Translations under genes and position numbers: made by a program
Notes under the pieces: generated by a model
Told to the model about the DNA's origin: nothing
Databases searched by the model: none
What the model saw: only the letters and a program-made list of their open reading frames with translations
In this document: piece by piece, positions 3,116 to 38,086 of the stretch
Layout: the number at the start of each line of letters is the position of its first letter
Numbering within the stretch: the stretch's first letter is position 1
Assembly: GCA_020847735.1 (NCBI GenBank)
Contig: JADLBL010000003.1
Span: 1-64,000, forward strand
Direction of reading: 5' to 3'
Source: Candidatus Eisenbacteria bacterium
Lineage (GTDB): Bacteria > Eisenbacteria > RBG-16-71-46
Length of the DNA stretch: 64,000 nucleotides

Positions 3116-3390
3116 TGGCCCAGTCGGGAGAGCTCGAGGAGGTCGTTCTTTATGCCGGCGACGAGGACGGCTTCGTCGTCACGGAGATCAGGCGGTGGCT
3201 GTCGAGGCACGGGATTGAAGCCCGTATTGCGCCTCCGGCGTTCTCAGACGGCAACGGTGGGCTCGAGCCCGTGTCATTGAGGGCCGGGCAGACAGTGTAT
3301 CGGAACGTCAACTCCATCGTGGCCGTGTTCTTTCACTCGATTGAGATTGGAGAGGAAGTTCCTGGATTTCGTGCCCAGCGAAGAGCCTAA
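3112..3390 (+). CDS. Small partner of the P-loop protein, possibly TIR-like
   Basis: This 92-aa protein overlaps the upstream stop (ATGA), so it is coupled to the P-loop gene. The N-terminus (EEVVLYAGDEDGF, then a helix and RWLSRHGIEARI) has the strand-acidic loop-helix-strand rhythm of TIR or flavodoxin-like domains. NSIVAVFFHSIEIG could be a second core strand. It is shorter than a full TIR domain (about 130 aa) and no catalytic Glu can be assigned, so the similarity is suggestive at best. A terminator starts 29 bp after the stop. Confidence 0.5.
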   Translation: MMAQSGELEEVVLYAGDEDGFVVTEIRRWLSRHGIEARIAPPAFSDGNGGLEPVSLRAGQTVYRNVNSIVAVFFHSIEIGEEVPGFRAQRRA

Positions 3391-3609: not shown

Positions 3610-4302
3610 ATGAGGGCTCAGCCAGCCGCTCCCCGGGCCAACGGGGAGCCCGAACCCCGTGAGACCATCGCCTACGCCGAGCTGCTGAAGCTCGCGCACG
3701 ACGAGGGCCTGAAGTCCATCGCCACCTCGCTCGTCTTGACGCCCTCCGAGGACAACGGCCGCCTCGCGATCGTCAAGGCCTCGGTCGAGACGGAGCGCGG
3801 GCACTTCGAAGCTCTGGGCGATGCCGATCCCGGCAACGTCGATGACTTCCTTGCCCCGCACCTGATCCGCGTGGCCGAGACCCGGGCCAAGGCCCGCGCC
3901 CTCCGTGACGCCTGCAATGTGGGCGTCGTCTCCTCCGAGGAGCTGGACGGCGTCAGCCGCGACCGGACCCCGAGCCCCGGACCGGGTGCACACCCTGCGC
4001 GCCCCAACGGCACGAGTCGCACGACCACGCGCCCGCGTGGCAACGGCTCCGCTCCACGATCCAACGCCAGCGGCTCGCCCGAGCCGATGACCGAGGGCCA
4101 GCGCCGGTACCTGTTCCGCATCCTCGCGGGGCAGGGCTACCAGCGCGAGGCCGCCGAGGTGCGCATCAAAGAGCTCTTCGACGTCGACTCGCTCGCCGAG
4201 ATCACCAAGACCGGCGCCATGCAGATGATCGACCGGCTCCTGAACCCCGTCCCCGCCACCGCGGGAGGCGGCAATGGAGCCGAGACGCGTCCTCTCCGTT
4301 AG
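3610..4302 (+). CDS. Rad52-like single-strand annealing protein
   Basis: This 230-aa protein is likely to bind single-stranded DNA and promote annealing in homologous recombination of the element. The N-terminal domain (about 15-115) contains the ERGHFEALGDADPGNV segment followed by HLIRVAETRAKARALRDA, a signature I associate with bacterial and phage Rad52-fold proteins. A Pro/Arg/Asn-rich linker (about 120-165) leads to a C-terminal helical module (MTEGQRRYLFRIL through MIDRLL) that often ends such proteins and may bind DNA or SSB. Its end overlaps the next nuclease gene by 29 bp, a pairing like annealase plus exonuclease in phage recombination modules. The ATG at 3610 follows AGGAG at 3598-3602. 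Family assignment is by pattern, not by alignment. Confidence 0.6.
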   Translation: MRAQPAAPRANGEPEPRETIAYAELLKLAHDEGLKSIATSLVLTPSEDNGRLAIVKASVETERGHFEALGDADPGNVDDFLAPHLIRVAETRAKARALRDACNVGVVSSEELDGVSRDRTPSPGPGAHPARPNGTSRTTTRPRGNGSAPRSNASGSPEPMTEGQRRYLFRILAGQGYQREAAEVRIKELFDVDSLAEITKTGAMQMIDRLLNPVPATAGGGNGAETRPLR

Positions 4303-5116
4303 CCAGGTCAACGCCTACCTCGGCTGTCCGCTCAAGTACCGCTTCCAATACGTGGACAAGATCCCGCGTCCCTGGCGGGTCGCTGGCATGGCCTTCGGCA
4401 CCTCGATCCACGCCGCCGTCGAGTGGTTCCACAAGGAACGGCTCGCCGGACGCTCGCCGGAGCTTCCCGACGTGCAGAAGGTCTTCGACGCCGACTGGTA
4501 CGCGCAGAACGTGGAGCCGCTTGTCTTCTCCGAACGCGAGTCCCGCGAGGGTCTCGCCGAGAAGGGACGGGCCATGCTCCAGCTCTACGTGGAGTCCTGC
4601 AATGGGACGAAGCCGGTCGCGGTCGAACAGCCGTTCGAACTCGACCTCGCCGATCCCGAGACCGGCGAAGTGCTCGAGGTGCGCCTGCGGGGCATCATCG
4701 ACCTTATCGAGGACGATGACGTGCTCGTGGACCTCAAGACCGCCGGCCGGACACTTGAAGCCGGCGGACTCGAACGGCACCTGCAGCTCTCCGCCTACGC
4801 GCTGGCCTATCTGCTCCTTAAGGGGAAGGTCCCGCGCCTGCGGCTGGACATGCTGCTCAAGACCACGAAGCCGCGGCTCGAGCGGCACGAGACCACCCGC
4901 TCGCTCGAGGACCTGTCCTGGACCGCCCGGCTGATCCGCGAGGTCTCCCTCGCGATCGAGACCGAGCATTTCTTCCCGAACCCGTCCTGGCGCTGCACCG
5001 AGTGCGAGTACTTCGCCCACTGCCAGCAGTGGCGCGGTACCTGGCCGATGCAGGCCGACGAGCAGTTACTCCAACTGGCTGAAAGGGAAGGTGTCGGCGA
5101 GATCGCGGGCGCGTGA
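4274..5116 (+). CDS. PD-(D/E)XK nuclease of the RecB/Cas4 type
   Basis: This 280-aa protein matches RecB-family nucleases: an N-terminal SVSQVNAYLGCPLKY motif, GTSIHAAVEWF, and the catalytic core GIIDLI (D143) with VDLKTA (D153, K155), then a QLSAYALAY motif IV. C18 together with C241, C244 and C250 forms a four-cysteine arrangement like the Fe-S clusters of Cas4 and AddB. It overlaps the Rad52-like gene, so the two probably form an exonuclease-annealase pair. No CRISPR array or other cas gene is present, so Cas4 function in adaptation is unlikely. The family call is strong; exonuclease polarity is unknown. Confidence 0.82.
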   Translation: MEPRRVLSVSQVNAYLGCPLKYRFQYVDKIPRPWRVAGMAFGTSIHAAVEWFHKERLAGRSPELPDVQKVFDADWYAQNVEPLVFSERESREGLAEKGRAMLQLYVESCNGTKPVAVEQPFELDLADPETGEVLEVRLRGIIDLIEDDDVLVDLKTAGRTLEAGGLERHLQLSAYALAYLLLKGKVPRLRLDMLLKTTKPRLERHETTRSLEDLSWTARLIREVSLAIETEHFFPNPSWRCTECEYFAHCQQWRGTWPMQADEQLLQLAEREGVGEIAGA

Positions 5117-5288
5117 GGACCTAGGCGGTCGTCGCGTGTCATCGGGGGCCACGGACGGCAGCTGAATGCCTTGCGCCCCGCGGCTCGTCGCACCTTCCCC
5201 GTCTCTTCGTTCCTTCCATCTCCATCGGGGCTCCGCGCGTATTCGCTCGGGGCCCTTCTTTCTTGCCCGCCCCTGCAGGAGTCACCCC

Positions 5289-5714
5289 GTGTATGTCCGC
5301 GAACTCACCCGTCGCCGCTACCGCACCACTTCCCCGGTTCCCATCCGTGGTCCCGACGACGTCGCCCACCTGCCGGCCGTCAAGCGGCTCGTCCGGGCCA
5401 AGCGAGAGCACTTCGTCGTGCTGCTCCTCAACGCCCGGCATGAGGTCGAGGGGATCGAGACCGTCTCGATCGGTTCCTTGAACGCCTCGATCGTCCACCC
5501 GCGCGAGGTCTTCAAGCCCGCCGTCGTCAGCTCGGCTGCCTCGGTCGTCCTTGTCCACAACCACCCTTCGGGCGATCCCGAGCCCTCGGAAGAAGACCTC
5601 TCGATCACCAAGCGCCTGGTCGAAGTCGGCGATCTGCTCGGCATCGGCGTCCTGGATCACGTCCTGGTCGCGAGCCGGGGCCTCGTCTCGTTCCGCGCCC
5701 GGCAACTGCTCTGA
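5289..5714 (+). CDS. RadC (JAB/MPN) domain protein
   Basis: This 141-aa protein consists of the RadC MPN+/JAMM domain alone, without the N-terminal helix-hairpin-helix of chromosomal RadC. The metal-binding motif is H90-N-H92-P-S-G with S100 and D103. Despite the historic name, RadC is not an established repair enzyme; stand-alone RadC genes are common on plasmids, ICEs and genomic islands. The GTG at 5289 is chosen because CAGGAG lies 8 bp upstream, whereas the longer frame is C-rich and not protein-like. The upstream 5117-5288 stretch is a leader with a GGGGCCC run and T-rich tail but no convincing hairpin. Confidence 0.85.
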   Translation: MYVRELTRRRYRTTSPVPIRGPDDVAHLPAVKRLVRAKREHFVVLLLNARHEVEGIETVSIGSLNASIVHPREVFKPAVVSSAASVVLVHNHPSGDPEPSEEDLSITKRLVEVGDLLGIGVLDHVLVASRGLVSFRARQLL

Positions 5715-5730
5715 CGAGAGGGAGGCACCA

Positions 5731-6132
5731 ATGGGCTACACCGTCGATCTGGAAGAAGCCAACCTCATGTGCCGCAGTGAAGCCGCAGCCCGCGAGGCCA
5801 CGACCATCGTCACCGCTCACCGAGAACTGAGTCCCTATCACCTCGAGGTGGCTCCCTGGCAGCGCAGCAGCCCGCCCCGCGAGGACGCATGGTCGCTCAG
5901 CATCGAGCACTTCCAGGGCGACCACTGGGACGACGACGCGGCCAAGCAGCTGTGGCTGGCGCTCGCCCCGCACCTGGCCGACGGCGCCACGATCGAGTTC
6001 CAGGGCGAGGACCGAGTGCGCTGGCGCATCCGCTGGGAGGCCGGCCGTGTCTTCGAGGAGTACGTCCACGAAGTGATCTGGGCCGTCGGCCAGGAGATCG
6101 ACCCGACAGAGTCTGAACCCGCCCCCGCATGA
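5731..6132 (+). CDS. Hypothetical protein between RadC and DUF932 genes
   Basis: This 133-aa acidic protein (VDLEEANLMC... WSLSIEHFQGDHWDDDAAKQLW) has no motif I recognise. It begins 17 bp after radC and ends 16 bp before the DUF932 gene, so it is part of one operon, and GGGAGG lies before its ATG. Alternating hydrophobic and acidic stretches (IEFQGEDRVRWRIRWEAGRVFEEYVHEVIW) suggest a small soluble alpha/beta protein. Confidence 0.6.
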   Translation: MGYTVDLEEANLMCRSEAAAREATTIVTAHRELSPYHLEVAPWQRSSPPREDAWSLSIEHFQGDHWDDDAAKQLWLALAPHLADGATIEFQGEDRVRWRIRWEAGRVFEEYVHEVIWAVGQEIDPTESEPAPA

Positions 6133-6887: not shown

Positions 6888-6920
6888 GGGGCTGTTCAGC
6901 GATGGACGGCCCCTCTTTTT
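6888..6920 (+). terminator. Rho-independent terminator
   Basis: A ten-pair stem (6888-6897 with 6904-6913, including two G-U pairs) with a six-base loop is followed by TCTTTTT. It ends the recombination-block operon. Confidence 0.8.
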
Positions 6921-23975: not shown

Positions 23976-24080
23976 GAAGCGGCACGCCCGCCTCGCTCCC
24001 TGCTAGTCACCCCGGCTCGCCTAGGGGATTTGGTACGACATCGACGGCCGCAACCGCCGCATGGCAAGATCGACGGGGTG

Positions 24081-24977
24081 ATGGAGCGACAGTGGCTGTA
24101 CCAGGATAGTGTGAGCCCGGTCGCCGAGCTAGACGGTGACGGTGAGTTGCTCTGGCGGTTCGTCTACAGCACTCGCGGGAACGTCCCGGACCTGGCGATG
24201 CGCGGGGACACCGTCTACCGGGTCGTGAGCGACCATCTCGGCAGCATCCTGGCGCTCGTCCGAGCCAGCGACGGCGCGGTGCGCGCGTGGTGGAACTTCG
24301 ACGCGTGGGGCAACGTCCTCACCAGCAGCGGACCGGGGCCATGCTTGGGATTCGCGGGAGGGCTGCCGGATTCGCTGACCGGCTTGATGAAGTTTGGGGC
24401 GCGCGACTATGATCCCAGTCTTGGGCGCTGGACGACAAAGGACCCCCTCCGCTTCGAGGGTGGAATAAACTTGTATGCCTACTGCGCAGGCGGGCCGGTC
24501 GACCTGCAGGATCCTAGTGGCCGCTTCCCGTTTGTGGGAGAGACGTGGCTTGATGCCATTGGCAAGTACACCTCCGGCAAGGGCGGGTCACACCAGGTCC
24601 CATTTTCTGAAGTTGACAAGCGGAAGTACCAACCCAGCTCGTTCCCTGGCTTCAATGAAGCCAAGAAGGTGCTTGCCCCCGGCCAGTCAACGAATGTCGA
24701 CACGGAACTGCATGAACGCATAGGTACTCTGCGAAGCCTCATAAGACCGTATGGCCGCGTGAGGTATCGACTCACAGGTTGCCTCATGCGTGGAGCTGAC
24801 GGAACGTACTATTTTGCGGGATATGTCGATGTGCTGGACGATGTGTGGGACTTCAACGTCGGAGACGGTCGTGACATACCAGGTGAGATTGCGACATGGA
24901 TCGGCAGTCACCTGCCTGGAGAGCCGTTCAGCTACCGCTTCAAGGGCCATCGGCCGGTTGAATACCATGGCTTCTAG
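24081..24977 (+). CDS. Orphan RHS core and alternative tip
   Basis: DNA from about 24041 repeats the end of the large RHS gene (from about 22781). A 4-bp deletion near 24060 breaks the frame, so this is a promoterless orphan cassette rather than a full gene. From the ATG at 24081 the frame encodes the last YD repeats and core (GARDYDPSLGRWTTKDP, then VDLQDPSG). A different 150-aa tip follows: WLDAIGKYTSGKGGSHQVPF ... DDVWDFNVGDGRDIPGE ... FKGHRPVEY. Orphan tips of this kind replace the tip of the main gene by recombination in the shared core. The DDVWDFN segment faintly recalls the Asp-rich motif of colicin-M-type lipid II hydrolases, which is a weak hint only. Confidence 0.7.
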   Translation: MERQWLYQDSVSPVAELDGDGELLWRFVYSTRGNVPDLAMRGDTVYRVVSDHLGSILALVRASDGAVRAWWNFDAWGNVLTSSGPGPCLGFAGGLPDSLTGLMKFGARDYDPSLGRWTTKDPLRFEGGINLYAYCAGGPVDLQDPSGRFPFVGETWLDAIGKYTSGKGGSHQVPFSEVDKRKYQPSSFPGFNEAKKVLAPGQSTNVDTELHERIGTLRSLIRPYGRVRYRLTGCLMRGADGTYYFAGYVDVLDDVWDFNVGDGRDIPGEIATWIGSHLPGEPFSYRFKGHRPVEYHGF

Positions 24978-25772: not shown

Positions 25773-26564
25773 TCAAGATGCCAGCCTTTGCGTGTTGAGG
25801 GTCTCAGTGTAACGCCGGGCGAACTCGCTCGGCGTCTTGTTGTCGAGGGCACTGTGCGGCCTGACTTCGTTGAAGTCCTGCCGGTAGGCATCGATCGCGT
25901 CGCGAGCCTCCGCGATGCTCCGCCACCAGTGCTGGTTCAGCAGCTCGTCCCGCATCCGGCCGTTGTAGCTCTCCATCACCGCGTTCTGGATCGGCTTGCC
26001 AGGTTGGATGAACTCCAGCGCGACCTTGTGCTCGTACGCCCACGCATCGAGTCGTGTGCTGCGAAACTCGGGCCCGTTGTCGAGGACGATGCGCGCCGGG
26101 TAGCCGCGCTCGAGCGCGATCTCCTCGAGCACCCCGATCACTCGCACCGCCGGCAGGCTCGTGTCGACCTCGCTCGCCAGCCCCTCGCGCGGGAGCACGT
26201 CCACCACGTTGAACACCCGGTAGCGCCGCCCGCTCGCGAGCGAGTCCGACATGAAGTCCATCGCCCAGCACTCGTTCACCCGCTGCGGCGTCACCAGCGG
26301 CTGCCGCGGCACCGAAACGCGCTTGTGCTTGCGACGGCGCACCGCCAGGCCTTCCTCGCGGTAGAGCCGGTACGTGCGCTTGATGTTCACCCGCACCCCT
26401 TCCCTTCGCAGCAGCAGGTGCAACCGCCGGTAGCCCCAGCGCACGCGCTCGAGCGCCAGCTCGCACAGCCGCTGCCGCAGCCCTTCCTGTGGAGGACGGC
26501 GTGAACGGTAGCGTTGGCTCGACAGCGGCACGCCCAGCGCGCTGCAGGCGCGGCGTTCCGACAC
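25773..26564 (-). CDS. IS3-family transposase OrfB (DDE integrase domain)
   Basis: This 263-aa product contains the helix-turn-helix-like region (RVRWGYRRLHLLLRREG) and an rve-type DDE core: WAMDFMSD (first Asp), VLDNGPEF (second Asp) and AVMESYNGRMRDE (Glu). The protein appears intact. It is normally made as an OrfAB fusion by a -1 frameshift; a GGGAAAAG run near the end of orfA could serve as the slippery site. The ATG at 26564 is nominal. Confidence 0.85.
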   Translation of the reverse strand: MSERRACSALGVPLSSQRYRSRRPPQEGLRQRLCELALERVRWGYRRLHLLLRREGVRVNIKRTYRLYREEGLAVRRRKHKRVSVPRQPLVTPQRVNECWAMDFMSDSLASGRRYRVFNVVDVLPREGLASEVDTSLPAVRVIGVLEEIALERGYPARIVLDNGPEFRSTRLDAWAYEHKVALEFIQPGKPIQNAVMESYNGRMRDELLNQHWWRSIAEARDAIDAYRQDFNEVRPHSALDNKTPSEFARRYTETLNTQRLAS

Positions 26565-28388: not shown

Positions 28389-29630
28389 ATGAATGGCGAG
28401 ATTGCTCTGCAGAATCTCTCGGACACCTTCAAGACGGCTGCCGACCGACTGGCGCGTGCAAGACAGCAGCTCGATGAGGGGGTGCATGATGGAACGGCGG
28501 CCCTCTCGTCCGATGCCATTGAGCTGATGTGCGCGAAACTAACCGGGTTGAGGAGGAATCGAGGCGAGCGGACGGAGGAGTTCTACTCCAGACGGTGGCG
28601 GTACACTATCGAACACTACGGACTCTCGAATACGCTTTTCGAGAAGTTCAGGCTCATGCACAATAACAGATTAAAGGACCGGTTCCAGGAGGAGCGCACG
28701 GGCGGGCCGAAGAAGCCGCTGAACGAATGGGAAGGAATCGCGAGCGTCGACTGCGGGTATGAGCTGCTCTTGGCAATGGCTGAGGCCCTCGGACCTGCGT
28801 ATCTCACGGATGTAGCGGAGCGACTCCGCGAGGGTGAGCGAGCGAGTGCACGTGTCTTGCTCCTCAATGAGCTGGAGCACCGTGTCAACTGGGGATTGTA
28901 CGGGCCCGACCTTGATGATCTTCTGCGTGATGCAGACCGCACCTTCAGAGGCCGGCGCGACTCAGACCGGGCTCTGCGGTTGTGGGCCCGCGTTACGACC
29001 CTGAAGGCGCATCGTGCTATGAATCTCGGCCAGTGCTTCGGCCCTCAAGGCGCCATCAGCAAGGCCAGAGAGGCCCGGGCCGTGTGGACCCGTCTGAATG
29101 ACCCATCGAACCTGATTTATTCGCTCGACATCGAGAGTGTCGCTCTGCGGATGATTGGGCGTGGCCGAGAAGCCCTGCACTGCGTCGAGCGTGCGCGCGC
29201 CATCGTTGCAGACATCGCGTGGCAGCAGCCCTACGTTGAATCGGAGATGGCCTCGGTCCTCGTGGCGATTGGCGAGCCGGCAGAGGCCCTGAAGATCCTC
29301 GAGGCAGAGTTCCACCGCGCCGAAGAGGCCGGAGATGGCGTGGCTGTCGGTCGCGCGCTTCAGCAGATCGGGATCGCCCTGGCAGACCTAGGCGACTGGG
29401 ACAGGGCCGAGGACCACCTCTTGACAGGCGAGGCTAGAATCCCCTATGATTATGTGATTACGCGAGTTATGGGCAGAAATGCACTTGTGAAGGTATACGC
29501 CACGTCCGGTCGGCGCAACGAGGCGCAAGAGCAAGCCGAATTCGTCTTGGGAATAGCCCAGGAGAAAGGGTTTGGCAACGAACTCCGCGGCCTTCAACGG
29601 ACCATGCGTGATCATCCGGACGTGTTCTGA
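28389..29630 (+). CDS. TPR-repeat protein, unknown function
   Basis: This 413-aa protein starts with a helical N-terminal region (QNLSDTFKTAADRLARARQQLDEG) and a basic Arg-rich stretch (KLTGLRRNRGERTEEFYSRRW). From about residue 190 to the end there are TPR-like helical pairs (ISKAREARAVWTRL, REALHCVERARAIV, PAEALKILEAEFHRAEE, GDWDRAEDHLL, RRNEAQEQAEFVLGIA). TPR proteins of this size often act as regulators or scaffolds, for example in Rap/PlcR-like peptide sensing. No DNA-binding helix-turn-helix is clear. It is divergent to the glycosyltransferase gene and could control it. Confidence 0.6.
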   Translation: MNGEIALQNLSDTFKTAADRLARARQQLDEGVHDGTAALSSDAIELMCAKLTGLRRNRGERTEEFYSRRWRYTIEHYGLSNTLFEKFRLMHNNRLKDRFQEERTGGPKKPLNEWEGIASVDCGYELLLAMAEALGPAYLTDVAERLREGERASARVLLLNELEHRVNWGLYGPDLDDLLRDADRTFRGRRDSDRALRLWARVTTLKAHRAMNLGQCFGPQGAISKAREARAVWTRLNDPSNLIYSLDIESVALRMIGRGREALHCVERARAIVADIAWQQPYVESEMASVLVAIGEPAEALKILEAEFHRAEEAGDGVAVGRALQQIGIALADLGDWDRAEDHLLTGEARIPYDYVITRVMGRNALVKVYATSGRRNEAQEQAEFVLGIAQEKGFGNELRGLQRTMRDHPDVF

Positions 29631-29935
29631 TCCGGGACAACCGACGAGGGAGGGGATGAAATGATGGGCTGCTCGCAGTCACTCCGCGTTCTTTCATTCC
29701 CACAAGACTCACCGCAAATCCTGAAAACTTCGCACGACCGGGCCGGTTCAGGGTCATCATCCGGCGGGTCCACTGGGCCGAGGCGCTAGCTCACGTGTGG
29801 GGTTGCTGGGAGCCCGACTGCAAGATGATGAAGATTCGGCTCGGCCGCCTGCTCGATCAGAACTCCACACTCGTCATGGTAGCGATCCAGGAACTGATCG
29901 ATTGCCGGGCGGGGTTCCGGCGCTAGATTTTCCTC
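29631..29935. other. Stretch before the right-end operon; nothing firm
   Basis: One frame, open from about 29660 to 29925, reads as a plausible protein fragment (RVIIRRVHWAEALAHVW, then KMMKIRLGRLLDQN) but has no ATG or GTG start with a ribosome-binding site. It may be a decayed gene. Confidence 0.3.
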
Positions 29936-29964
29936 TTGACGAGAACCGACTGAGCCTCTATTGT
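29936..29964 (+). promoter_or_regulatory. Strong candidate sigma-70 promoter
   Basis: TTGACG (29936-29941) and TATTGT (29959-29964) are separated by exactly 17 bp. Transcription would start about 29971, directly before a terminator-like hairpin, and run toward the right-end modification and transfer genes. Confidence 0.65.
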
Positions 29965-29974
29965 TCGCGACGTC

Positions 29975-30012
29975 AGGGCTGTCCCGCGCGAAGGCGCGAG
30001 GCAGCCCTTTTT
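29975..30012 (+). terminator. Terminator-like hairpin at the very start of the transcript
   Basis: The outer stem AGGGCTG/CAGCCCT (29975-29981 with 30002-30008) and inner stem CGCGC/GCGCG (29985-29989 with 29994-29998) are followed by a TTTTT run. Since the promoter is immediately upstream and the gene at 30217 is downstream, it probably acts as an attenuator. Confidence 0.65.
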
Positions 30013-30216
30013 CCTTTCATGAGGAGGATCACTAGGCATCGGCCGAGATCGTGTTCTGGACCAGCTGGCCAGGTTCCATGCCGCTACGCGTCGGTTGACG
30101 CGTGGTCGTGCCGGAGGAGCCGGCGAGCTATCCCGAAGACGAGCCTCCGCTTCAGCGGGGCAGTCCTGACACGGGGCGTTCCGACCGGCTCCACTCTCCG
30201 TCATCTGGGAGGAGCC

Positions 30217-30411
30217 ATGACTACGAAGCCCGGGTACGACGGTCTCGGCCCAATGAAGCCCTCACCGGCACTACTCGTTCCTCGCCGGGACGGTTCTGTC
30301 GAAGTGCGGTCACCGAATCTGCGGCGGTTGCTTGCTGTGATCACGGTTGAGGGCGCCCTCATCATCAAGCGCGGCGACGAGTTGGTGATCGTGGAGGTGC
30401 CGACGAACTAG
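30217..30411 (+). CDS. 64-aa hypothetical protein
   Basis: ATG at 30217 follows GGGAGGAG. The product is small and beta-rich (ALLVPRRDGSVEVRSPNL, LAVITVEGALIIKRGDELVIVEV). It lies at the head of the putative modification module. It has no C-terminal diglycine, so a ubiquitin-like modifier role is not supported. No family is recognised. Confidence 0.5.
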   Translation: MTTKPGYDGLGPMKPSPALLVPRRDGSVEVRSPNLRRLLAVITVEGALIIKRGDELVIVEVPTN

Positions 30412-30460
30412 TCGCCCTCGTCAGGCGAACTGATGCACGAATTACGCAACCTTGAGCTAG

Positions 30461-30516
30461 ACCGAGGCGCCAGCGCTCGACGCGACAGCCCCAACGCAAT
30501 GCGGTGGGGCGTTTTC
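30461..30516 (+). promoter_or_regulatory. Leader element copy 1: 31-bp repeat plus hairpin
   Basis: A 31-bp sequence (30461-30491) identical to 31003-31033 runs into a stem GCCCCAACGC/GCGGTGGGGC (30488-30497 with 30501-30510, one mismatch) followed by GTTTTC. It ends 34 bp before the start codon at 30550, too close for a separate promoter, which suggests regulated read-through. Confidence 0.55.
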
Positions 30517-30549
30517 ATCGCTCGCCGACGAGTGACTGGGGGTCCTGAG

Positions 30550-30918
30550 ATGCCGAGAGCAGTCGACCAATTAGCACGGAGCCTGAAGCCACATGCGCTC
30601 GTGCGCGTCACTGTCCCTTCGCGTGATCGCTCTCACCGGTCTGTCTCGTCGGAGCGCATCCTGCGCGAGATCGAAGCGACGCTCCTCGCCGTTGCCTCGG
30701 GAACGACCACGTTCCGGGGGCAAGGAACATGGCTCAATGGCGGCTCTCAACCGGTTCGCGAGAGGATCCTCGTCGTCGAGTCATACATGCCGGCGGCGTT
30801 GGACCGAAGGAAATCGAGAAGGGTTGCGGAGCAACTTTTGCAGATCGCTCATCGAGCAAGACAGGACGCCCTCTTCGTCGTAGCCGGTGGGCAGCCGATT
30901 CTGCTCCCCGGCCACTGA
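30550..30918 (+). CDS. 122-aa hypothetical protein
   Basis: The ATG at 30550 follows a weak GGGGGT ribosome-binding site. The protein has VRVTVPSRDRSHRSVSSERI, an alpha-helix (LREIEATLLAVASG) and TTFRGQGTWLNGG followed by RERILVVESYM. This T-x-G-x-G-x-W plus conserved Glu pattern is slightly like DUF3574-type proteins, but I do not assign it. It is preceded by leader element copy 1 and followed by copy 2. A role as partner or substrate of the downstream E1/E2-like proteins is possible but unproven. Confidence 0.5.
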   Translation: MPRAVDQLARSLKPHALVRVTVPSRDRSHRSVSSERILREIEATLLAVASGTTTFRGQGTWLNGGSQPVRERILVVESYMPAALDRRKSRRVAEQLLQIAHRARQDALFVVAGGQPILLPGH

Positions 30919-31002
30919 TCCGGGAGACTCCTGCCCGACGCAAGGAGGTTACGGCGCAAGTCCGCCTTCGCCAGGCGGAGGCGAGTCCACGTTAGAACCA
31001 CG

Positions 31003-31059
31003 ACCGAGGCGCCAGCGCTCGACGCGACAGCCCTTACCGATGGCGGTGAGGGCCTTTTC
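31003..31059 (+). promoter_or_regulatory. Leader element copy 2: 31-bp repeat plus hairpin
   Basis: The 31-bp repeat (31003-31033) joins a perfect ten-pair stem with one G-U pair (31030-31039 with 31044-31053) and a CTTTTC tail. The stem differs from copy 1 by paired changes, so base pairing is preserved while the sequence changes. A 23-codon frame starts 23 bp later. Confidence 0.55.
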
Positions 31060-31082
31060 GTTGCCTCCCGCGAGGTATCGCA

Positions 31083-31154
31083 ATGACCGCGACGAACAGT
31101 TCGCTGGTGCGTGGCGACGACCGGGACTTCGTCCCGGCCGGCACGTTCCACTAG
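31083..31154 (+). CDS. Possible 23-aa peptide gene
   Basis: ATG at 31083, with GCGAGG 7 bp upstream, opens MTATNSSLVRGDDRDFVPAG followed by TFH and a TAG stop. It sits between leader element copy 2 and the E2-like gene. It may be a leader peptide or a small substrate. Coding evidence is only position and a fair ribosome-binding site. Confidence 0.3.
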   Translation: MTATNSSLVRGDDRDFVPAGTFH

Positions 31155-31239
31155 CCGGCGCACGCACCCGGCGGGGCGGCGGCTCCGAGCCGCCGCCCGA
31201 CGGCCGGGCTCCGGATCGCAATCACTCGAAGGAGGCGAC

Positions 31240-31605
31240 ATGTGGTGGCTCGTGGGCTTGCTCGCGGCACTCGCCGCAGCCAGCAACAACGACTCGCGGA
31301 ACTCGGTGGTGAGCGGTTCCAGCCGCTCGTCCGACTCCGACGGCTGGTCGCGCACGCTGACTTACCGCTCGCGCGACGGCAGCTCGTTCTTCCGGTTCCG
31401 CTTCACGCCGATCGGCGGGGACATCCGGATCCACATCCTCGAGCTTCCGAATCCCCGTGTCGGCTCGTGTCACGTGCTGCACGACGCGCAGGGGCTCTAC
31501 ATCTGCTGGTCGACTGCAGTCCGGTCGATGGCCGCGGCAAAGGCTGTCGCCCTGATGTGGGCCGAGGCCACGCTCATCTACCAGCGCACAGGTCGCTCGT
31601 TCTAG
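31240..31605 (+). CDS. Putative E2-like (ubiquitin-conjugating fold) protein
   Basis: This 121-aa protein has a hydrophobic N-terminus (MWWLVGLLAALAAA), a Ser-rich linker and a compact domain from about residue 48. Strands FFRFRFTP and DIRIHILELP are followed by SCHVLHDAQGLYICW, with Cys 89 behind a H78..H81 context, and then a long helix AAAKAVALMWAEATLIYQRTG. The H-x-(G)-x-C then W/A-rich helix order resembles divergent bacterial E2-like domains found next to JAB and ThiF genes. It sits 14 bp upstream of a JAB-ThiF fusion gene, which is the main support. The family call is inference; the hydrophobic N-terminus is unusual for an E2. GGAGG precedes the ATG. Confidence 0.5.
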   Translation: MWWLVGLLAALAAASNNDSRNSVVSGSSRSSDSDGWSRTLTYRSRDGSSFFRFRFTPIGGDIRIHILELPNPRVGSCHVLHDAQGLYICWSTAVRSMAAAKAVALMWAEATLIYQRTGRSF

Positions 31606-31619
31606 GAGGGATGTGCCCC

Positions 31620-33149
31620 ATGAGACTCAGGCTAGGACTCGGGAATCGAGGTGCGAGGATGCGACGGAGCGATGGACCGGGCAACCCCTCGCGAGAGCCC
31701 CTACGTGTGACTGCGGCGGTCCATCGCCAGATCATCGGTGCCATCGGCGGCAAGACGCCCGAGAACGGGATGCTCCTGGGCGGAGATCCAGTCGACGGTG
31801 TCGTCCGGCACGTGGTGTTCGACGACGGCGCCGTGCGCTCCGGCAGCACCTACTCGCCCGACCACGTTCGATTGAATTCTCTGCTGTCGGACTGGTGGCG
31901 GCCCTCCGGCATCCGCCTGCTCGGCTTCGTGCACTCGCACCCGGGGCAGTTCGCGCGTCCATCGGGTGGTGACCTGCACTACGCCAAGGCCATCCTCAAG
32001 GCGAACCCGCACCTCGATCGGCTCCTCATGCCGATCGTGACCGTCACGCCCGAGCCGATGATTCACCCGTTCGTGGTGCGCCGAACGGCCGAGGGCGTAA
32101 CGGCGGCGCCAGCGACGCTCGAGGTCCTCGACGAGGTGCTCCTGACGGCCGGCGAGAAGTCGCCGAACGTTCCCGCGGTCGAGTTGCCCGTCCTGCCTCC
32201 GCGGCGCATTCGCGAGGAGACGTTTCAGCGCGTCGTGTGCGCCTACGACCTGGCGCATCTGCGGCACTGCCGCGTCGTCGTGGTCGGCGTGGGCGGCGCG
32301 GCCGGCTTTGCCGAGGATCTCGTCCGGGCCGGCGTGCATGACCTCGTCCTCATCGATCCCGACACCGTCTCGACCTCGAACCTCGCCACGCAGCAGGTGT
32401 ATCGACGCGACCTCGGCCGTTCGAAGGTCGAGGCCATCGCCGACCGGCTGCGCGACATCAACCCCGCCGTCGAGGTGCGCGCCCTGCAGGCGGACTTCAC
32501 CAGCCTCACCGAGTCCGAGGTCGAGAGCCTGCTCGGGCTCGACCTCGCCCGGCCGCCGATCCGCACGCTGCTGTGCGGCTGCACGGACGACTTCTTCGCG
32601 CAGGCGCGAGTGAACCGCGTTGGGCTGCAGCACGGCGTACCGACCCTCTGCGGCCAACTGTACGCCGAAGGCCGCGGAGCCGAGCTGACGTTCACCTACC
32701 CGGCTGTCACCCCGGCTTGCCATCGCTGCATCCTCCGCTCGCGCTACGAGGCCTACCTCGAGCACCGATACGCCAATGCCGTCACGTCTGACGGGACGCC
32801 GATTTCGTCCACGACCCGATTGAATGCCGCAAAGCTCGCGGTCGCGATGGGGCTGCTCCACCACGGCACCACGCACGCGCGCTGGGGGCGTCTGCTCGAA
32901 CGCATCGGTAACCGCAACCTCGTCCAACTCCGCCTCGACCCCGATCTCGAGCTGCCCGTGTTCGATCAAGTTCTCGTCGGCGACCGCGAGCGGGTGTTCA
33001 GCGACGAAGCCGTCTGGCTGCCGCAGGAACCCGAGGGACCGGCAGTGGGCCGCCCCGCGTGCCCGGACTGCGGCGGGACCGGGGATCTGCGGCAAGCGAT
33101 CGGGACAATTGCCGACACCCGTCTGCTTCCGCCGCGGAAGACGGTGTGA
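31620..33149 (+). CDS. JAMM protease-ThiF/E1 fusion protein
   Basis: This 509-aa protein fuses two parts of ubiquitin-like pathways. Residues about 28-150 are a JAB/MPN+ domain with E48, H105-S-H107-P, S115 and D118, the full JAMM zinc set, so isopeptidase activity is plausible. Residues about 205-450 are a ThiF/E1 adenylation domain: VVGVGGAAG (nucleotide loop, 222-229), LIDPD (D246), SNLATQQVY and GRSKVE. CHRC (367/370) and CPDC (481/484) are two CxxC knuckles that should form the E1-type zinc site. PRTRC cassettes and Bil or CBASS operons use separate or differently fused JAB and E1 proteins. ATG at 31620 is preferred over 31611 because the AGGAGGG spacing is better. The 3' end overlaps the next gene. 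Confidence 0.88.
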   Translation: MRLRLGLGNRGARMRRSDGPGNPSREPLRVTAAVHRQIIGAIGGKTPENGMLLGGDPVDGVVRHVVFDDGAVRSGSTYSPDHVRLNSLLSDWWRPSGIRLLGFVHSHPGQFARPSGGDLHYAKAILKANPHLDRLLMPIVTVTPEPMIHPFVVRRTAEGVTAAPATLEVLDEVLLTAGEKSPNVPAVELPVLPPRRIREETFQRVVCAYDLAHLRHCRVVVVGVGGAAGFAEDLVRAGVHDLVLIDPDTVSTSNLATQQVYRRDLGRSKVEAIADRLRDINPAVEVRALQADFTSLTESEVESLLGLDLARPPIRTLLCGCTDDFFAQARVNRVGLQHGVPTLCGQLYAEGRGAELTFTYPAVTPACHRCILRSRYEAYLEHRYANAVTSDGTPISSTTRLNAAKLAVAMGLLHHGTTHARWGRLLERIGNRNLVQLRLDPDLELPVFDQVLVGDRERVFSDEAVWLPQEPEGPAVGRPACPDCGGTGDLRQAIGTIADTRLLPPRKTV

Positions 33150-33526
33150 TGGCTCGCGAAGTCGACTGGTTCGGGTTCCTCGTGTCCGTCTTCGTGAAGG
33201 GGGTCTTCGCGATGCTCATCATCCACTGGGTTCTTGCACAAGTCCTCTTGATCTGGACCTCGGCCGATCGCTCGCTGCGCCCGATGTCGCTCGCCGCAGA
33301 CCTGCTGGGTGGGGTCGTCCTGATCTGCCTGCTGGTTGGTCTGGCGGCTCGTGCACGAGCAGCGTTCGAGGGCCGTGATCGCGGGCTCGTCCGTGAACGA
33401 CGCGCGGAGCGGCGGCTCGTCCGTCACAGCGTTCGACGTTCGGCCGACGACGTCCCGTTGGACGATGCACCGCAGTCGGCGGACTCCGATCCGATCCTGC
33501 ACCACGACGAGGGGGCCGACGAATGA
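33149..33526 (+). CDS. Two-helix membrane protein upstream of the coupling ATPase
   Basis: This 125-aa protein has two transmembrane helices (about 8-34, FGFLVSVFVKGVFAMLIIHWVLAQVLLIW; about 48-67, LAADLLGGVVLICLLVGLAA) and a cytoplasmic charged tail. It overlaps the JAB-ThiF stop (TGATG) and the next start (ATGA), so all three are coupled. By position it may tether the ATPase to the membrane, as VirB10- or TraD-N-terminal-like helices do; the ATPase itself has no obvious membrane helix. Confidence 0.65.
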   Translation: MAREVDWFGFLVSVFVKGVFAMLIIHWVLAQVLLIWTSADRSLRPMSLAADLLGGVVLICLLVGLAARARAAFEGRDRGLVRERRAERRLVRHSVRRSADDVPLDDAPQSADSDPILHHDEGADE

Positions 33527-35040
33527 GCCTTCTTCTCGACTTAAGGCGCATCCTCCATCCTGCCGATCCGCGCGACGCTCGTCGTTTCGAGCGGATCGCG
33601 CGCCAAGATGCCAGTCCCTACTTCGCTGCACGCCGGGAGTTCGAGAGCCGATTTCGGTGCGCCCGCGCATCGGACCGCATTGTATTTGGCCGCGGACCCA
33701 CGGTCGGTGGCGAGTACAACTGGTTCGGCCTGCCGTTTCGCGATCTCGGCCACGTGTGGATTCATGGAGCAACTGGATCCGGCAAGAGCTTTGCGGCGCT
33801 CAGTCTGATCCTCTCGCTCCTGCGCCGGAGCCGTGCGCGGATCTTCCTCTTCGACTTCAAGCCCGAGATCGCCGATCTCGTCTTGCTCGCCGTTCAGGCG
33901 CTCGTGGCTCGGAGCGAGACGTGGCTGCTCGATGACGTCCAGCTGCTCGATCCCTTCGGCCCGACGCCGCTGCCGCTTCGCGTGACCGTGCCCGAGCCCG
34001 GGGTGCCGCGAAGCGTCCAGGCCCTGGCCCTCGCTTCGAGCCTCGAGGAGACGGTGGCCAGCGAGCTGGGCGTGCGGATGCTGCGGACCTTCGTGTGGCT
34101 TGTGAGCCTGGCCATCGAGTGCGGTTATCCGCTGACGGCCCTGGCGCGGTGGCTGCGTACACCGGGCGTCTTCCAGGAGCTGGCGCTACGTTCCACCGAT
34201 CCGGAGCTTCGCGAGTATGCCGCCTCCAGCTTCGGGCGCGAGCAGCGGGCGTCGCTGGAAGCGATTGCCGCGCGCCTCGACTTGTTGGTGTTCCTGCCGC
34301 AACTGCGCGCGGCGCTCGAGCACCCGGGGTGCATCGATCTGGCCGCGCTCTTCCGTCGGCCCGGGCTCACTCTCGTGCGTCTGGGCGGCGCGCCGGCCGG
34401 AGCGGAGGCGGCCGAGCGGTTGATCGCTTCGCTGCTCATGGGCCTGTGGACGCGCGCCGTGCTCTCCCGCGAGATCACCGAGGGCTCATTGCCGGTGGTC
34501 GGAGTGTTCGACGAAGGCCAGCTGGCGGTCCGGGCCCGCGACGTCGAGCACTTCTCGCGGTTCGCGACGTTGGCTAGGTCCAAGCGCGGGACGCTGGTCT
34601 TCCTCAACCAGCAGATCTCGCAGCTCGACCACGGCTTCGCCCGGGTGCTGCGGACGAACGCCAACCTGGAGATGGCCTTCCGCTCGAGCGCCGAGGACGC
34701 GGCCTCCCTGGCCTCCGTCCTGCCGCTGGCGGTGGGAGAGGGCGCCGAGGCGGCGGATCGTCGCGAACTCGTCCGTACCCTCAGCCATCTGCCGAACCGC
34801 ACGTTCGCGCTCTGGGCCAAGAGCCTCGGGCATGCGGCGCTCCTTCGCTCCCCGCGCATCGATCTGGATGGCATGCGACGTGACGCGGGCCGTATTCCCG
34901 AGAGCGCCGCGCAGGCGCTTCTTGTGGGGACGGTCCCGGTTCGGCAGTTCACCCCGCCGTCGAGTCCATTCCGTGCTCCTGAAGAAGAGGCCGAGGTTGA
35001 AGCGCCCGGACCCGACGATGGCTTCCCGAGCCTTGGATAG
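33523..35040 (+). CDS. VirD4/TraD-like coupling ATPase
   Basis: This 505-aa P-loop ATPase resembles conjugative coupling proteins and HerA/FtsK-like motors. Walker A is GATGSGKS (82-89); a Walker B-like VVGVFDEGQLAV is near 325-336, followed by a FATLARSKRGTLVFLNQQ sensor region. Residues about 100-130 (RIFLFDFKPEIADLV) match the strand after the P-loop. There is no N-terminal membrane anchor; the preceding membrane protein may supply it. Neighbours (replication-relaxation protein, excisionase, integrase) fit DNA mobilisation. Confidence 0.78.
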   Translation: MSLLLDLRRILHPADPRDARRFERIARQDASPYFAARREFESRFRCARASDRIVFGRGPTVGGEYNWFGLPFRDLGHVWIHGATGSGKSFAALSLILSLLRRSRARIFLFDFKPEIADLVLLAVQALVARSETWLLDDVQLLDPFGPTPLPLRVTVPEPGVPRSVQALALASSLEETVASELGVRMLRTFVWLVSLAIECGYPLTALARWLRTPGVFQELALRSTDPELREYAASSFGREQRASLEAIAARLDLLVFLPQLRAALEHPGCIDLAALFRRPGLTLVRLGGAPAGAEAAERLIASLLMGLWTRAVLSREITEGSLPVVGVFDEGQLAVRARDVEHFSRFATLARSKRGTLVFLNQQISQLDHGFARVLRTNANLEMAFRSSAEDAASLASVLPLAVGEGAEAADRRELVRTLSHLPNRTFALWAKSLGHAALLRSPRIDLDGMRRDAGRIPESAAQALLVGTVPVRQFTPPSSPFRAPEEEAEVEAPGPDDGFPSLG

Positions 35041-35049
35041 GAGCGGAGT

Positions 35050-35367
35050 GTGCGTGAAGTACGGGAATTGGCGCGATTCGTCGTCGGAGTCGTCCGCGCG
35101 CTCGTTTGGCTGGTGGCCACTATCTGGCTGGGCGGCCGGGCGATCTGGCGTGGCGCGGACCTGCTCCGTCGCTGGCGCCTCGTCCACAGCGATCGGCTCA
35201 GCTGTCCCCGCGGCCATGAGGTCGTGCTGCTTGGCACGTGGCGCTGCGGCTGCGGCGCCGCCTTCGACGGCTACGTCTTCGCCAAGTGCCCGATCTGCCA
35301 CCGTACCGCCGGCTGGGTGCCATGCACGCGATGCCAGCTGCCTTTGAGGAACCCGGCCCTTGACTAA
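35050..35367 (+). CDS. Membrane-anchored zinc-ribbon protein
   Basis: This 105-aa protein has an N-terminal hydrophobic helix (FVVGVVRALVWLVATIWLGG) and a C-terminal zinc-binding region with CPRG, CGCG, CPIC and CTRC knuckles, enough for two zinc sites. It starts at GTG 35050, 9 bp after the ATPase stop, and its end overlaps the next gene by 8 bp. Role unknown; by position it probably works with the ATPase. Confidence 0.6.
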   Translation: MREVRELARFVVGVVRALVWLVATIWLGGRAIWRGADLLRRWRLVHSDRLSCPRGHEVVLLGTWRCGCGAAFDGYVFAKCPICHRTAGWVPCTRCQLPLRNPALD

Positions 35368-36133
35368 CCAGCACCAAAGAGCGCCGCGCGGGGTGCGCCG
35401 AGGCCGGACTCGCCTGGAACTGACGAGACGCGACCGGGCGATCTTGGGAGCGGTCAGCAGGTTCAGGCTGTGCCGGAGCAGCGACCTGGCGCGGCTCTTC
35501 TTCGGCGCGGCCAGCCGGACGCGAGTGGCCCAGCGGCTTCGGAGCCTGTTCGGGGCGGGCTATCTCGACGTGCGGGTCGAACACCTGGCGGAGGAGAACC
35601 TCCACTCGCTTGGCGAGCTGGGTCGGGCTTGGGCGCGAGCACAGGGGCTGACGATCGGCCGCGTGCCGAGCGGCCGGATCGGCCACCACCTCGACGTCGT
35701 GCGCGCGTGGAGCACACTGGCTGCCGTCCTCGGGCCCCACAACCAGATCCGGCTCGCGCGCGTCCGGCCGGACTGGGAGTTGCGGGAGGCAGGCGGTCAC
35801 CTCGTCGTGCCGGATCTGCTCGTGGAGCTCTCGGCGGCGGGGAAGCGATTGGTCGTGGCGGTCGAGGTCGATCGCGGAACCGAGCGGACACGCGCCTGGC
35901 AGGACAAGCTCGCGCGCTACAGCGCCGTCCACGCCGACCGCGAGGCCCTGCTCGTGGTGATCGCCGCCCCGTCGGTCGTCCCGGCGCTCGAGCGGCTGGC
36001 CAAGCGTGCCTGGCTTGGCCGCGTGCTGGTCGTGGCCGAGGCCGACTGGCCGGAGCTGTTCATCCGCCGCGCTGAGGCCCTTCTCACGGACCCTTCTTGC
36101 AGCAAGAAGGGGGAGGAGGCGGCAAGTGCTTGA
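35360..36133 (+). CDS. Replication-relaxation (MobC-like) family protein
   Basis: This 257-aa protein fits the replication-relaxation family found on plasmids and ICEs. It has an N-terminal winged-helix domain (LTRRDRAILGAVSRFRLCRSSDLARLFF), then a region ending in VVPDLLVEL followed by VAVEVDRGTERTRAWQDKLARY. The latter resembles a PD-(D/E)XK-like core (Asp, then E-x-D, then a Lys-bearing helix). The likely role is binding the origin of transfer or replication. The start is TTG at 35360 with AGGA upstream, overlapping the previous gene. Confidence 0.72.
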   Translation: MTNQHQRAPRGVRRGRTRLELTRRDRAILGAVSRFRLCRSSDLARLFFGAASRTRVAQRLRSLFGAGYLDVRVEHLAEENLHSLGELGRAWARAQGLTIGRVPSGRIGHHLDVVRAWSTLAAVLGPHNQIRLARVRPDWELREAGGHLVVPDLLVELSAAGKRLVVAVEVDRGTERTRAWQDKLARYSAVHADREALLVVIAAPSVVPALERLAKRAWLGRVLVVAEADWPELFIRRAEALLTDPSCSKKGEEAASA

Positions 36134-36682: not shown

Positions 36683-36967
36683 ATGAGCGGGATCCCGTCT
36701 CGCATCCGAGCGTCGCACGCCGAGCTGCTCGACCTCGGCCCGGCTGGGTCTGTGGAAGCGCCTCAGCTAGCGCCGCAGCGCCCCAGCATCGTCGACGAGT
36801 CGCACCTGCTGACGCTCGGCGATGTGGCCGAGTACCTGCGCGTCAGCCCGCGGACGGTGCGCCGGCTCATGCGCCGCGGCTTGCCTTGTATCCGGTTCGG
36901 GCGCTCGGTTAGGTTCGAGCCCAAGGCGGTTTCTCGCTGGCTCGAAGCGCGTCAAGAAGGAGGCTGA
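36683..36967 (+). CDS. Excisionase-type helix-turn-helix protein
   Basis: This 94-aa protein carries an excisionase/MerR-like helix-turn-helix: LLTLGDVAEYLRVSPRTVRRLMRRG, then IRFGRSVRFEPKAVSRWLEA. It ends 1 bp before the GTG of the integrase gene, the usual xis-int arrangement, and should direct excision of the element by bending attachment-site DNA. The first about 38 residues are a non-conserved extension. Confidence 0.82.
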   Translation: MSGIPSRIRASHAELLDLGPAGSVEAPQLAPQRPSIVDESHLLTLGDVAEYLRVSPRTVRRLMRRGLPCIRFGRSVRFEPKAVSRWLEARQEGG

Positions 36968-36968
36968 C

Positions 36969-37979
36969 GTGCCACCGAGACCGAGGAACTTGGTCAGGAA
37001 GCCGGGGAAGCCGGGCTGGTACTTCCGCCGCAAAGTCGGCGGGCGAACGTTCTGGCGATCCCTCGGCATGGACTACGAGGAGGCGTGCCGCAGACTTCGT
37101 CGATACAGAGACCGCGAGACGGTTCGGCGACCGGACCTCACGGTCAAGAGAGCAGCCGAAGATTGGCTCGAGGCGTACGTGGCTACCGCTCGTCGGCCGG
37201 AAGATCGGCCGCTGGCGGCTCAGCGCGTGCGTGACTACCTGGTCCCGGCCATCGGGCACCTGCTCGTCGTTCGGATCACGGGCGACGATCTCCGACGCTA
37301 CCGGCTCCGGTTGGAGCGGGGGCACTTGTCGCGACAGTCCGTGCGGCACGTGCTAGCCGACTGCCGGTGCTTGTTCCGCTGGTGCGTGGACTCGGGACTG
37401 CTGGACCAGTCCCCGGTCCCGCGGAAGTTCCTGCCGCGGATCCAGGAGCGGCCACCCGATCGGTTGTCGGAGGAGCAGCTGCAGTTGGCCTGCAGTCTGC
37501 CGGACCCGTGGGGCTTCTTCTGCCGGCTCGGTGCCGGGACGGGTCTGCGTTGGGGCGAGCTCCACCGACTCCAGTCTTCGGACCTGCAGCACGGGCTGCT
37601 GGTCATCCATCAGACCAAGAGCGGCAAGGTCCGGCGGGTGCCAGTCCCGAGAAGCCTGCAGCTGGAGATCCGCGGTCGGGTGGGCCGGCTCGTGGCGTTC
37701 AAACACGCGCAGAGCATCAGCGACTACGTGCGTGCCGCCGGCGTCGAGGGCTTCCACGTCCACCAACTGCGGCACACGTTCGCGTGCCGGTGGCTGGAAC
37801 GCGGAGGATCGCTGGCCGCGCTGCAGCAGATTCTCGGGCATGCGTCGATCGTCACGACGCAGCGCTACGCCAGTATCTCGACGGACATGATCCAGCGTGA
37901 GGCTGAGCGTCTTGAAACCGAAGGGGTTCCCCTCGGGGTACCCCGGAACTACGAAGACACTGAGGAGTCAACAGGTTAG
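36969..37979 (+). CDS. Tyrosine integrase of the element
   Basis: This 336-aa site-specific recombinase has an N-terminal arm-binding-like region (KPGWYFRRKVGGRTFWRSLG), a SAM-like core-binding domain (about 50-160) and a catalytic domain with GTGLRWGEL (Arg), HQLRHTFACRWL (H-x-x-R), ILGHAS (His) and TTQRYASI (Tyr). The gene ends 18 bp before the tRNA-Ser 3' fragment, so this enzyme probably catalysed insertion into that tRNA gene. GTG at 36969 is used, next to the excisionase stop; the longer open frame reads into the upstream gene. Confidence 0.9.
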   Translation: MPPRPRNLVRKPGKPGWYFRRKVGGRTFWRSLGMDYEEACRRLRRYRDRETVRRPDLTVKRAAEDWLEAYVATARRPEDRPLAAQRVRDYLVPAIGHLLVVRITGDDLRRYRLRLERGHLSRQSVRHVLADCRCLFRWCVDSGLLDQSPVPRKFLPRIQERPPDRLSEEQLQLACSLPDPWGFFCRLGAGTGLRWGELHRLQSSDLQHGLLVIHQTKSGKVRRVPVPRSLQLEIRGRVGRLVAFKHAQSISDYVRAAGVEGFHVHQLRHTFACRWLERGGSLAALQQILGHASIVTTQRYASISTDMIQREAERLETEGVPLGVPRNYEDTEESTG

Positions 37980-37997
37980 GCGGAAATTTGGGCAGGG

Positions 37998-38055
37998 CTC
38001 GAAAACCGTTAAGGGCGCAAGCCCTTCGAGGGTTCGAATCCCTCCCTCTCCGCCA
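37998..38055 (+). other. attR: 3' fragment of tRNA-Ser(CGA)
   Basis: The fragment starts in the anticodon loop (CTCGAAA, anticodon CGA) and runs through the 3' anticodon strand, long variable arm (AAGGGC/GCCCTT), T-arm (GAGGG-TTCGAAT-CCCTC), 3' acceptor strand (CCTCTCC), discriminator G and CCA. Upstream bases do not complete the anticodon stem and no GGAGAGG acceptor 5' strand is present. This is the displaced 3' end left by integration; crossover probably lies at or near the anticodon loop. Confidence 0.88.
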
Positions 38056-38086
38056 GCCGGCGGCGCCACGGGCGCTGCGAGCTCGC

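Follow-up and report, generated by a model that had tools for sequence, protein, structure and literature searches.

A duplicated terminator-type module in the small-gene region of an integrative element from Candidatus Eisenbacteria, and its candidate short-peptide modifier operon

Results and Discussion

Within the window, which is the whole 64,000-nucleotide (64 kb) stretch of a Candidatus Eisenbacteria contig that we analysed, two terminator-type RNA elements are supported between the small genes of an integrative element, with compensatory changes that distinguish the two copies. We give about even weight to the reading that they represent a duplicated leaky intercistronic terminator module that would punctuate the small-gene part of the element's operon. 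The operon encoded there is more novel than the RNA element, a local form of a known terminator type, and as a possible peptide-modifier operon it matters more than the repeat.

The integrative element and its genes

The region belongs to an integrative element with a tRNA-Ser att fragment, an integrase, a HerA-like ATPase, and a Replic_Relax protein. The gene order was TPR gene, small ORFs, E2-like gene, JAB-E1 gene, a small gene, HerA-like ATPase, Replic_Relax, and tyrosine integrase:

28389-29630, + strand, TPR protein of the element (domain search)
30217-30411, + strand, 64-aa ORF with a good Shine-Dalgarno sequence and no family
30550-30918, + strand, 122-aa protein with a ferredoxin-like predicted fold (structure match; homologue in genome G006, E 5.9e-8)
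31083-31154, + strand, gene for a 23-aa peptide with the C-terminus VPAGTFH, immediately after module copy 2
31240-31605, + strand, E2-like protein (UFC1 best by VIA-align at Z 5.3, weak alone; invariant Cys89)
31620-33149, + strand, JAB-E1 (ThiF) fusion (Pfam Prok-JAB and ThiF; alignment)
33523-35040, + strand, HerA/FtsK-like ATPase (domain search)
35360-36133, + strand, Replic_Relax protein (domain search)
36822-37979, + strand, tyrosine integrase (domain search)
37990-38057, + strand, 3' fragment of tRNA-Ser(CGA), taken to be the att site

For the predicted fold of the 122-aa protein, the best PDB match was a phage SAM lyase (6zm9, E 2.6e-5) followed by CutA/PII, and the protein was rejected as a candidate antiterminator on the basis of this PII/CutA/SAM-lyase-like fold. 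A paralogous element in the same genome (L008; G000:C21:196000-215000) adjoins an intact tRNA-Ser(CGA) and carries a JAB-E1 that is ~45% identical, in a gene order much alike, without the module. A third element, in G006 (L033), encodes the homologue of the 122-aa protein together with a HerA-like gene, Replic_Relax, and an integrase, with no JAB-E1 in the stretch read. RHS/YD-repeat genes were found beside all three elements (24030-24974 in the window, 23-2608 in L008, and 10773-13934 in L033), and the terminal region of the one in the window had a weak, sub-threshold match to Colicin_M. To the left of the element, the window also contains a transposase with rve and HTH_21 domains (25776-26564), which we take to be of the IS3 type.

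The duplicated module

An earlier note on this DNA had reported a pair of identical 31-bp sequences, and these proved to be exact. The repeat unit is longer than that note gave, at ~125 bp, and includes an additional upstream hairpin (hairpin I):

30401-30532, + strand, module copy 1 (hairpin I, linker, 31-mer, terminator stem, T-run, short 3' part)
30412-30428, + strand, hairpin I of copy 1 (5 bp, -6.8 kcal/mol)
30461-30491, + strand, identical 31-mer of copy 1 (its final 4 bases form the 5' foot of the stem)
30488-30515, + strand, terminator-like stem-loop and T4 of copy 1 (stem 30488-30510, T-run 30512-30515)
30952-31074, + strand, module copy 2 (local alignment to copy 1)
30961-30979, + strand, hairpin I of copy 2 (7 bp)
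31003-31033, + strand, identical 31-mer of copy 2 (search of window and own genome)
31030-31058, + strand, terminator-like stem-loop and T4 of copy 2 (stem 31030-31053, T-run 31055-31058)

With up to 3 mismatches allowed, the 31-mer had 2 matches in the window (0 in 100 shuffles) and 2 in the whole 3.66-Mb genome. Local alignment of 30401-30532 with 30952-31074 scored 110; the upstream flanks alone scored 29, whereas none of 1000 shuffles exceeded 27 (p<0.001), the 80-nt upstream flanks scored 37 against a shuffle maximum of 31, and homology 3' of the T-run was not significant by itself (p 0.47). One pair of hairpin I is U-A in copy 1 and C-G in copy 2. Both flanks of the identical block have diverged between the copies, and within the part formed by the 31-mer and the terminator none of the 13 differences fell in the identical block (P 3e-6 under an even spread), which suggests that the core was either kept unchanged or converted, with the stem drifting under the constraint of pairing. 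Over their full 130-145 nt, the modules did not clearly exceed shuffles in stability (z -1.60 and -1.69). The 31-mer was also compared with places in six regions, where similarity ranged from p 0.015 to 0.98 and no similarity is claimed.

As the earlier note had described, a stem and T-run follow each 31-mer, with T4 in both copies. The folding energies were -16.3 kcal/mol for the stem at 30488-30510 (z -2.8 relative to shuffles) and -19.0 kcal/mol for that at 31030-31053 (z -4.9). Each stem has ten pairs, reading GCCCCAACGC-AAT-GCGGTGGGGC in copy 1 and GCCCTTACCG-ATGG-CGGTGAGGGC in copy 2, and the observation that the stems differ yet remain paired held up in detail: pairs 5, 6, 9, and 10 (4 of 10) have changed on both sides with pairing kept, pair 7 is mismatched (A.G) in copy 1 only, copy 2 having A-U there, and the other five are unchanged. 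Both copies thus show a stable GC-rich stem followed directly by a U-run, as in an intrinsic terminator; a stricter terminator scan listed copy 2 and not copy 1. On the + strand of the 64-kb window, five regular hairpins stand directly before TTTT (T-runs at 6916, 30008, 30512, 31055, and 38117), with three further U-run hairpins left out as irregular when judged by eye, and three of the five clean hairpins sit within 1.05 kb at the module region.

The repeat pair amounts to a natural experiment, with an identical core and a drifting paired stem within one operon, and it makes a regulated or leaky terminator from an uncultured phylum testable by reporter.

Promoter, third hairpin, and leader

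Three further features lie upstream of the modules:

29936-29964, + strand, sigma-70-like promoter match (9/12, consensus alone)
29972-30170, + strand, structured leader with a long-range 16-bp helix (29972-29987 / 30155-30170)
29976-30012, + strand, third hairpin and its T5, where the putative leader starts (stem 29976-30007, z -4.9)

The third hairpin had been placed at a predicted transcription start, and it does begin ~11 nt after TTGACG-17-TATTGT, although as a promoter this match is only 9/12. The leader (about 29971-30225) folds with a z of -4.97. Its 16-bp helix has a duplex energy of -35.5 kcal/mol and competes with the third hairpin; a role for the helix as a switch for that hairpin was rejected, as its far strand is made too late, after the third terminator.

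The modules are positioned behind the 64-aa and 122-aa genes and ahead of the 122-aa and 23-aa genes, and the distances from hairpin to next ATG measured 34 and 24 nt, exactly as claimed. From these gaps the earlier note had argued that there is no room for promoters and that transcripts must pass through the hairpins. A consensus scan found no sigma-70-like promoter between 30013 and 31300, which supports the first argument in part, as promoters of other types or overlapping a hairpin may still be present; the second is deduced from the spacing and this one consensus scan.

Searches for further copies

A 91-base query around copy 1 matched its own genome only among 59, with no match in the 58 others, 20 of which were from the same genus, family, or order. 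There was no exact 24-mer match in genome_contigs, no exact 22-mer match in viral_contigs, and no match for 29930-31250 in plasmids by distant blastn. The covariance search that had been proposed as a check gave no further members among the hits examined: a model built from the two seed copies (R1) and run against 14 sources and 17 genomes matched only the seeds well. The next-best matches, at 22.9-23.0 bits (L060 and L061), were one within a coding region and one at an unrelated terminator, and were read as chance; weaker matches (L062, L063, and L065) were aligned as well.

Interpretation of the modules

Considering the gaps of 34 and 24 nt and the absence of a sigma-70-like match from 30013 to 31300, the 122-aa, peptide, and enzyme genes would most simply be expressed by read-through, and for this reason we take the modules to be leaky intercistronic terminators. 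Transcription would enter from upstream, perhaps from the promoter match at 29936, and the polymerase would stop at each hairpin in a fraction of passages and continue in the rest; the successive small products might then be made in falling or adjustable amounts, and hairpins at the 3' and 5' ends would also bound stable pieces of mRNA. The strong stem-loop behind the peptide gene would act likewise ahead of the enzyme genes. Because the 31-mer overlaps the foot of the terminator, it would be a natural candidate site for a factor that alters read-through. The arrangement resembles intrinsic terminators that serve as intercistronic attenuators, with a GC-rich stem and then a T-run between genes of one operon; it differs in the invariant 31-nt sequence shared by the two copies and in the additional upstream hairpin. 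Several observations weigh against the leaky-terminator reading, including the short T-runs (T4), the stability of the whole modules, which is not clearly beyond that of shuffles, and the paralogous element of the same genome, which has no recognisable module, so that even in the family the module is not a conserved feature. In a relative from the family (L060), a U-run hairpin lies shortly before the start codon of an unrelated gene, and thus spacing alone is no proof of read-through.

Regulated antitermination, in which a protein or a structured leader RNA would act on the terminators, is the main alternative, though in our view rather unlikely. In one variant of this explanation the 31-mer would be a RAT-like recognition element whose alternative hairpin takes the 5' foot of the terminator. 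In layout, it resembles the RAT of the BglG/SacY/LicT antiterminators in its length of ~30 nt and in its overlap with a terminator's foot (PMC9981650). Several terminators in one operon are a further likeness, the bgl operon having a two-terminator layout. The RAT of nagY overlaps its terminator with compensatory changes (PMC9981650). The 31-mer likewise ends inside the terminator stem (GCCC overlap), and a hairpin of the competing kind is possible at -8.6 kcal/mol and is the optimum for the copy-2 prefix to 31036. However, this alternative hairpin is weak and no more stable than the optimum of the 31-mer itself (-8.6 vs -9.2 kcal/mol), no BglG-type gene was named among the 10 element proteins scanned, and the 122-aa protein, with its PII/CutA/SAM-lyase-like predicted fold, is unlike an RNA-binding antiterminator. 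In the other variant, the leader at about 29971-30217 would be a cis-acting antiterminator resembling canT of Tn916 or put of HK022. Here the likeness lies in terminators inside an integrative element and in a long, structured leader, and antitermination by canT is documented in such an element in the part of PMC11658703 concerning Tn916. The strong fold of the leader (z -4.97) favours this variant, but the competing leader strand is made only once the third terminator has been passed, the leader of the paralogous element L008 was not unusually structured (z -1.56), and no Rfam match above gathering score was found. Put-like antitermination had been suggested in the earlier note, and it gained nothing from our searches, which identified no processive antiterminator and, in the collections searched, no homologue.

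Quite improbable, to our judgement, is that the hairpins are plain terminators of the preceding genes that were locally duplicated, with the following genes transcribed from their own promoters of an unrecognised type, perhaps overlapping the hairpins, and the 31-bp identity a conversion tract. The existence of two copies only, with none in 58 relatives and no exact 24-mer in genome_contigs, fits this explanation, and a sharp identity block is also expected from gene conversion; the gaps nevertheless hold no promoter-like match, and divergence on both sides of the block together with stems that stay paired fits selection at least equally well. We regard it as very unlikely that the 31-mer is a DNA site, either an operator or a recombination site, with the hairpin incidental, although it does contain an imperfect 17-bp dyad (CGAGGCGCCAGCGCTCG) and shows weak partial similarity to two places, one at 29773 (p 0.045) and one ahead of the peptide gene in L008 (p 0.03). 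Both similarities were lost on correction for the six regions tested, and an integron attC was rejected when its core was not seen by eye against the consensus.

A candidate short-peptide modifier

Module copy 2 is the leader of the 23-aa peptide gene, whose product is MTATNSSLVRGDDRDFVPAGTFH. One further feature separates this gene from the enzyme genes:

31167-31208, + strand, strong stem-loop without T-run, between the peptide gene and the E2-like gene (-36.3 vs -31.1 for the best of 25 shuffles)

In related loci from other phyla, a peptide with the motif [LIVF]PxG[TGRS]F, frequently present as tandem units, is followed by a strong stem-loop, in most cases by an E2-fold protein, and by fused JAB-E1. 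The JAB-E1 family comprised 11 loci, of which L009 and L017 end just upstream, leaving nine readable. The strict motif was present in eight of these, and the ninth (L051) had VPAGFF and VEAGTF. The peptide of the paralogue L008 (8540-8623) ends LIPPGTFRR and that of L016 (Pirellulaceae, 5097-5282) contains VVPVGTFH, while the tandem forms include four GDDELPEGGFR units in L018 (Pontiellaceae, 5398-5589), two DEIPPGTFH units in L044, one VPPGTFH and three AIPAGTFH units in L050, and five ESVPSGTFR units in L052. For L043 the motif, QLPQGRF, is fused at the N-terminus of JAB-E1 itself (4023-5759, reverse complement). A scan of 248,470 bases drawn from 21 sources gave 19 strict-motif matches, every one of them at the peptide places of these loci, compared with 2-6 matches anywhere in five shuffles. 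The strict motif was absent from the comparison E1 loci L045 and L046, taken from four partial matches, and from seven distant E1 loci (L019-L025). The product of the gene in the modifier position is 23 aa long in the window and 27-64 aa at the other loci, and the three peptides tested had no match in NCBIfam.

The stem-loop behind the peptide gene was found in all eight loci that have a separate peptide gene, and it was beyond 25 shuffles in seven of them; that of L044 reached -24.3 vs -22.1 in 100 shuffles, with the gap set to the probable E2 start. Hairpins upstream of the peptide gene were beyond all shuffles in just one of the eight loci and are no general feature. At L018, overlapping complementary pairs (GGCATCC/GGGATGCC and GGGTCTC/GAGACCC) were noted at 5325-5385, just before the peptide ATG, and could form a pseudoknot.

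The JAB-E1 has the E1-like ThiF and JAB peptidase expected of a bacterial ubiquitin-like conjugation operon. Its JAMM residues E48, H105, S106, and D118 were invariant in six of six sequences, H107 was Q in L016, and many E1 motif residues were invariant in the alignment. JAB-E1 was not found in viral_contigs, and plasmids yielded only E1 domains of <40% identity. For the E2-like proteins, H78, H81, Y87, and C89 were invariant in all five aligned. With the model of the window's protein (pLDDT 73), 19 UFC1-type E2 chains ranked first by VIA-align, at Z scores of 4.5-5.3 over 78-82 residues, where a Z below 8 is weak alone; further E2s came next, and Foldseek gave no match below E 0.001. Among the listed ORFs of L052, there was no E2-like gene between the peptide and JAB-E1.

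Gene order, the motif, and the tandem units suggest a reading that we hold as plausible, a little short of evenly balanced: the modules and the post-peptide stem-loop would control how much is made of a novel type of modifier, in which an E1/E2/JAB pathway uses a short unfolded peptide, single or as a tandem polyprotein, that would be cut by JAB after the glycine of PxG|TF, activated there by E1, and passed to the UFC1-like E2. If a short peptide is indeed the modifier, then ubiquitin-like conjugation needs no ubiquitin fold, ideas on the origin of such systems would change, and a very small conjugation tag would be on offer.

Pup and UBact are small modifiers that use a different ligase. Fusions of JAB and E1 that occur with E2-like proteins and with Ub-like or polyUb-like ones, in part within ICE-like elements, were described by Iyer et al. 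in 2006 (PMC1779556, in excerpt), and the Bil system is treated in a review (PMC11354881, in excerpt). The polyUbl operons (row 6e of PMC1779556) and Bil (PMC11354881) are similar to our loci in having JAB either joined to E1 or encoded next to it, together with an E2-fold protein and a small upstream gene, with some of them mobile and some with tandem modifiers. They differ in that the small gene here encodes a 23-64-aa peptide with [LIVF]PxG[TGRS]F units rather than a beta-grasp protein, and the excerpts of these two articles describe no short peptide in place of the modifier. A limited search of the open literature, with limited terms, found no publication describing a short-peptide modifier that goes with E1/E2/JAB. 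At the L051 locus, three E2-like paralogues are arranged in a row around the peptide gene (1710-3256), the third of which reads YIDW where the others of the family read YICW or YVCW.
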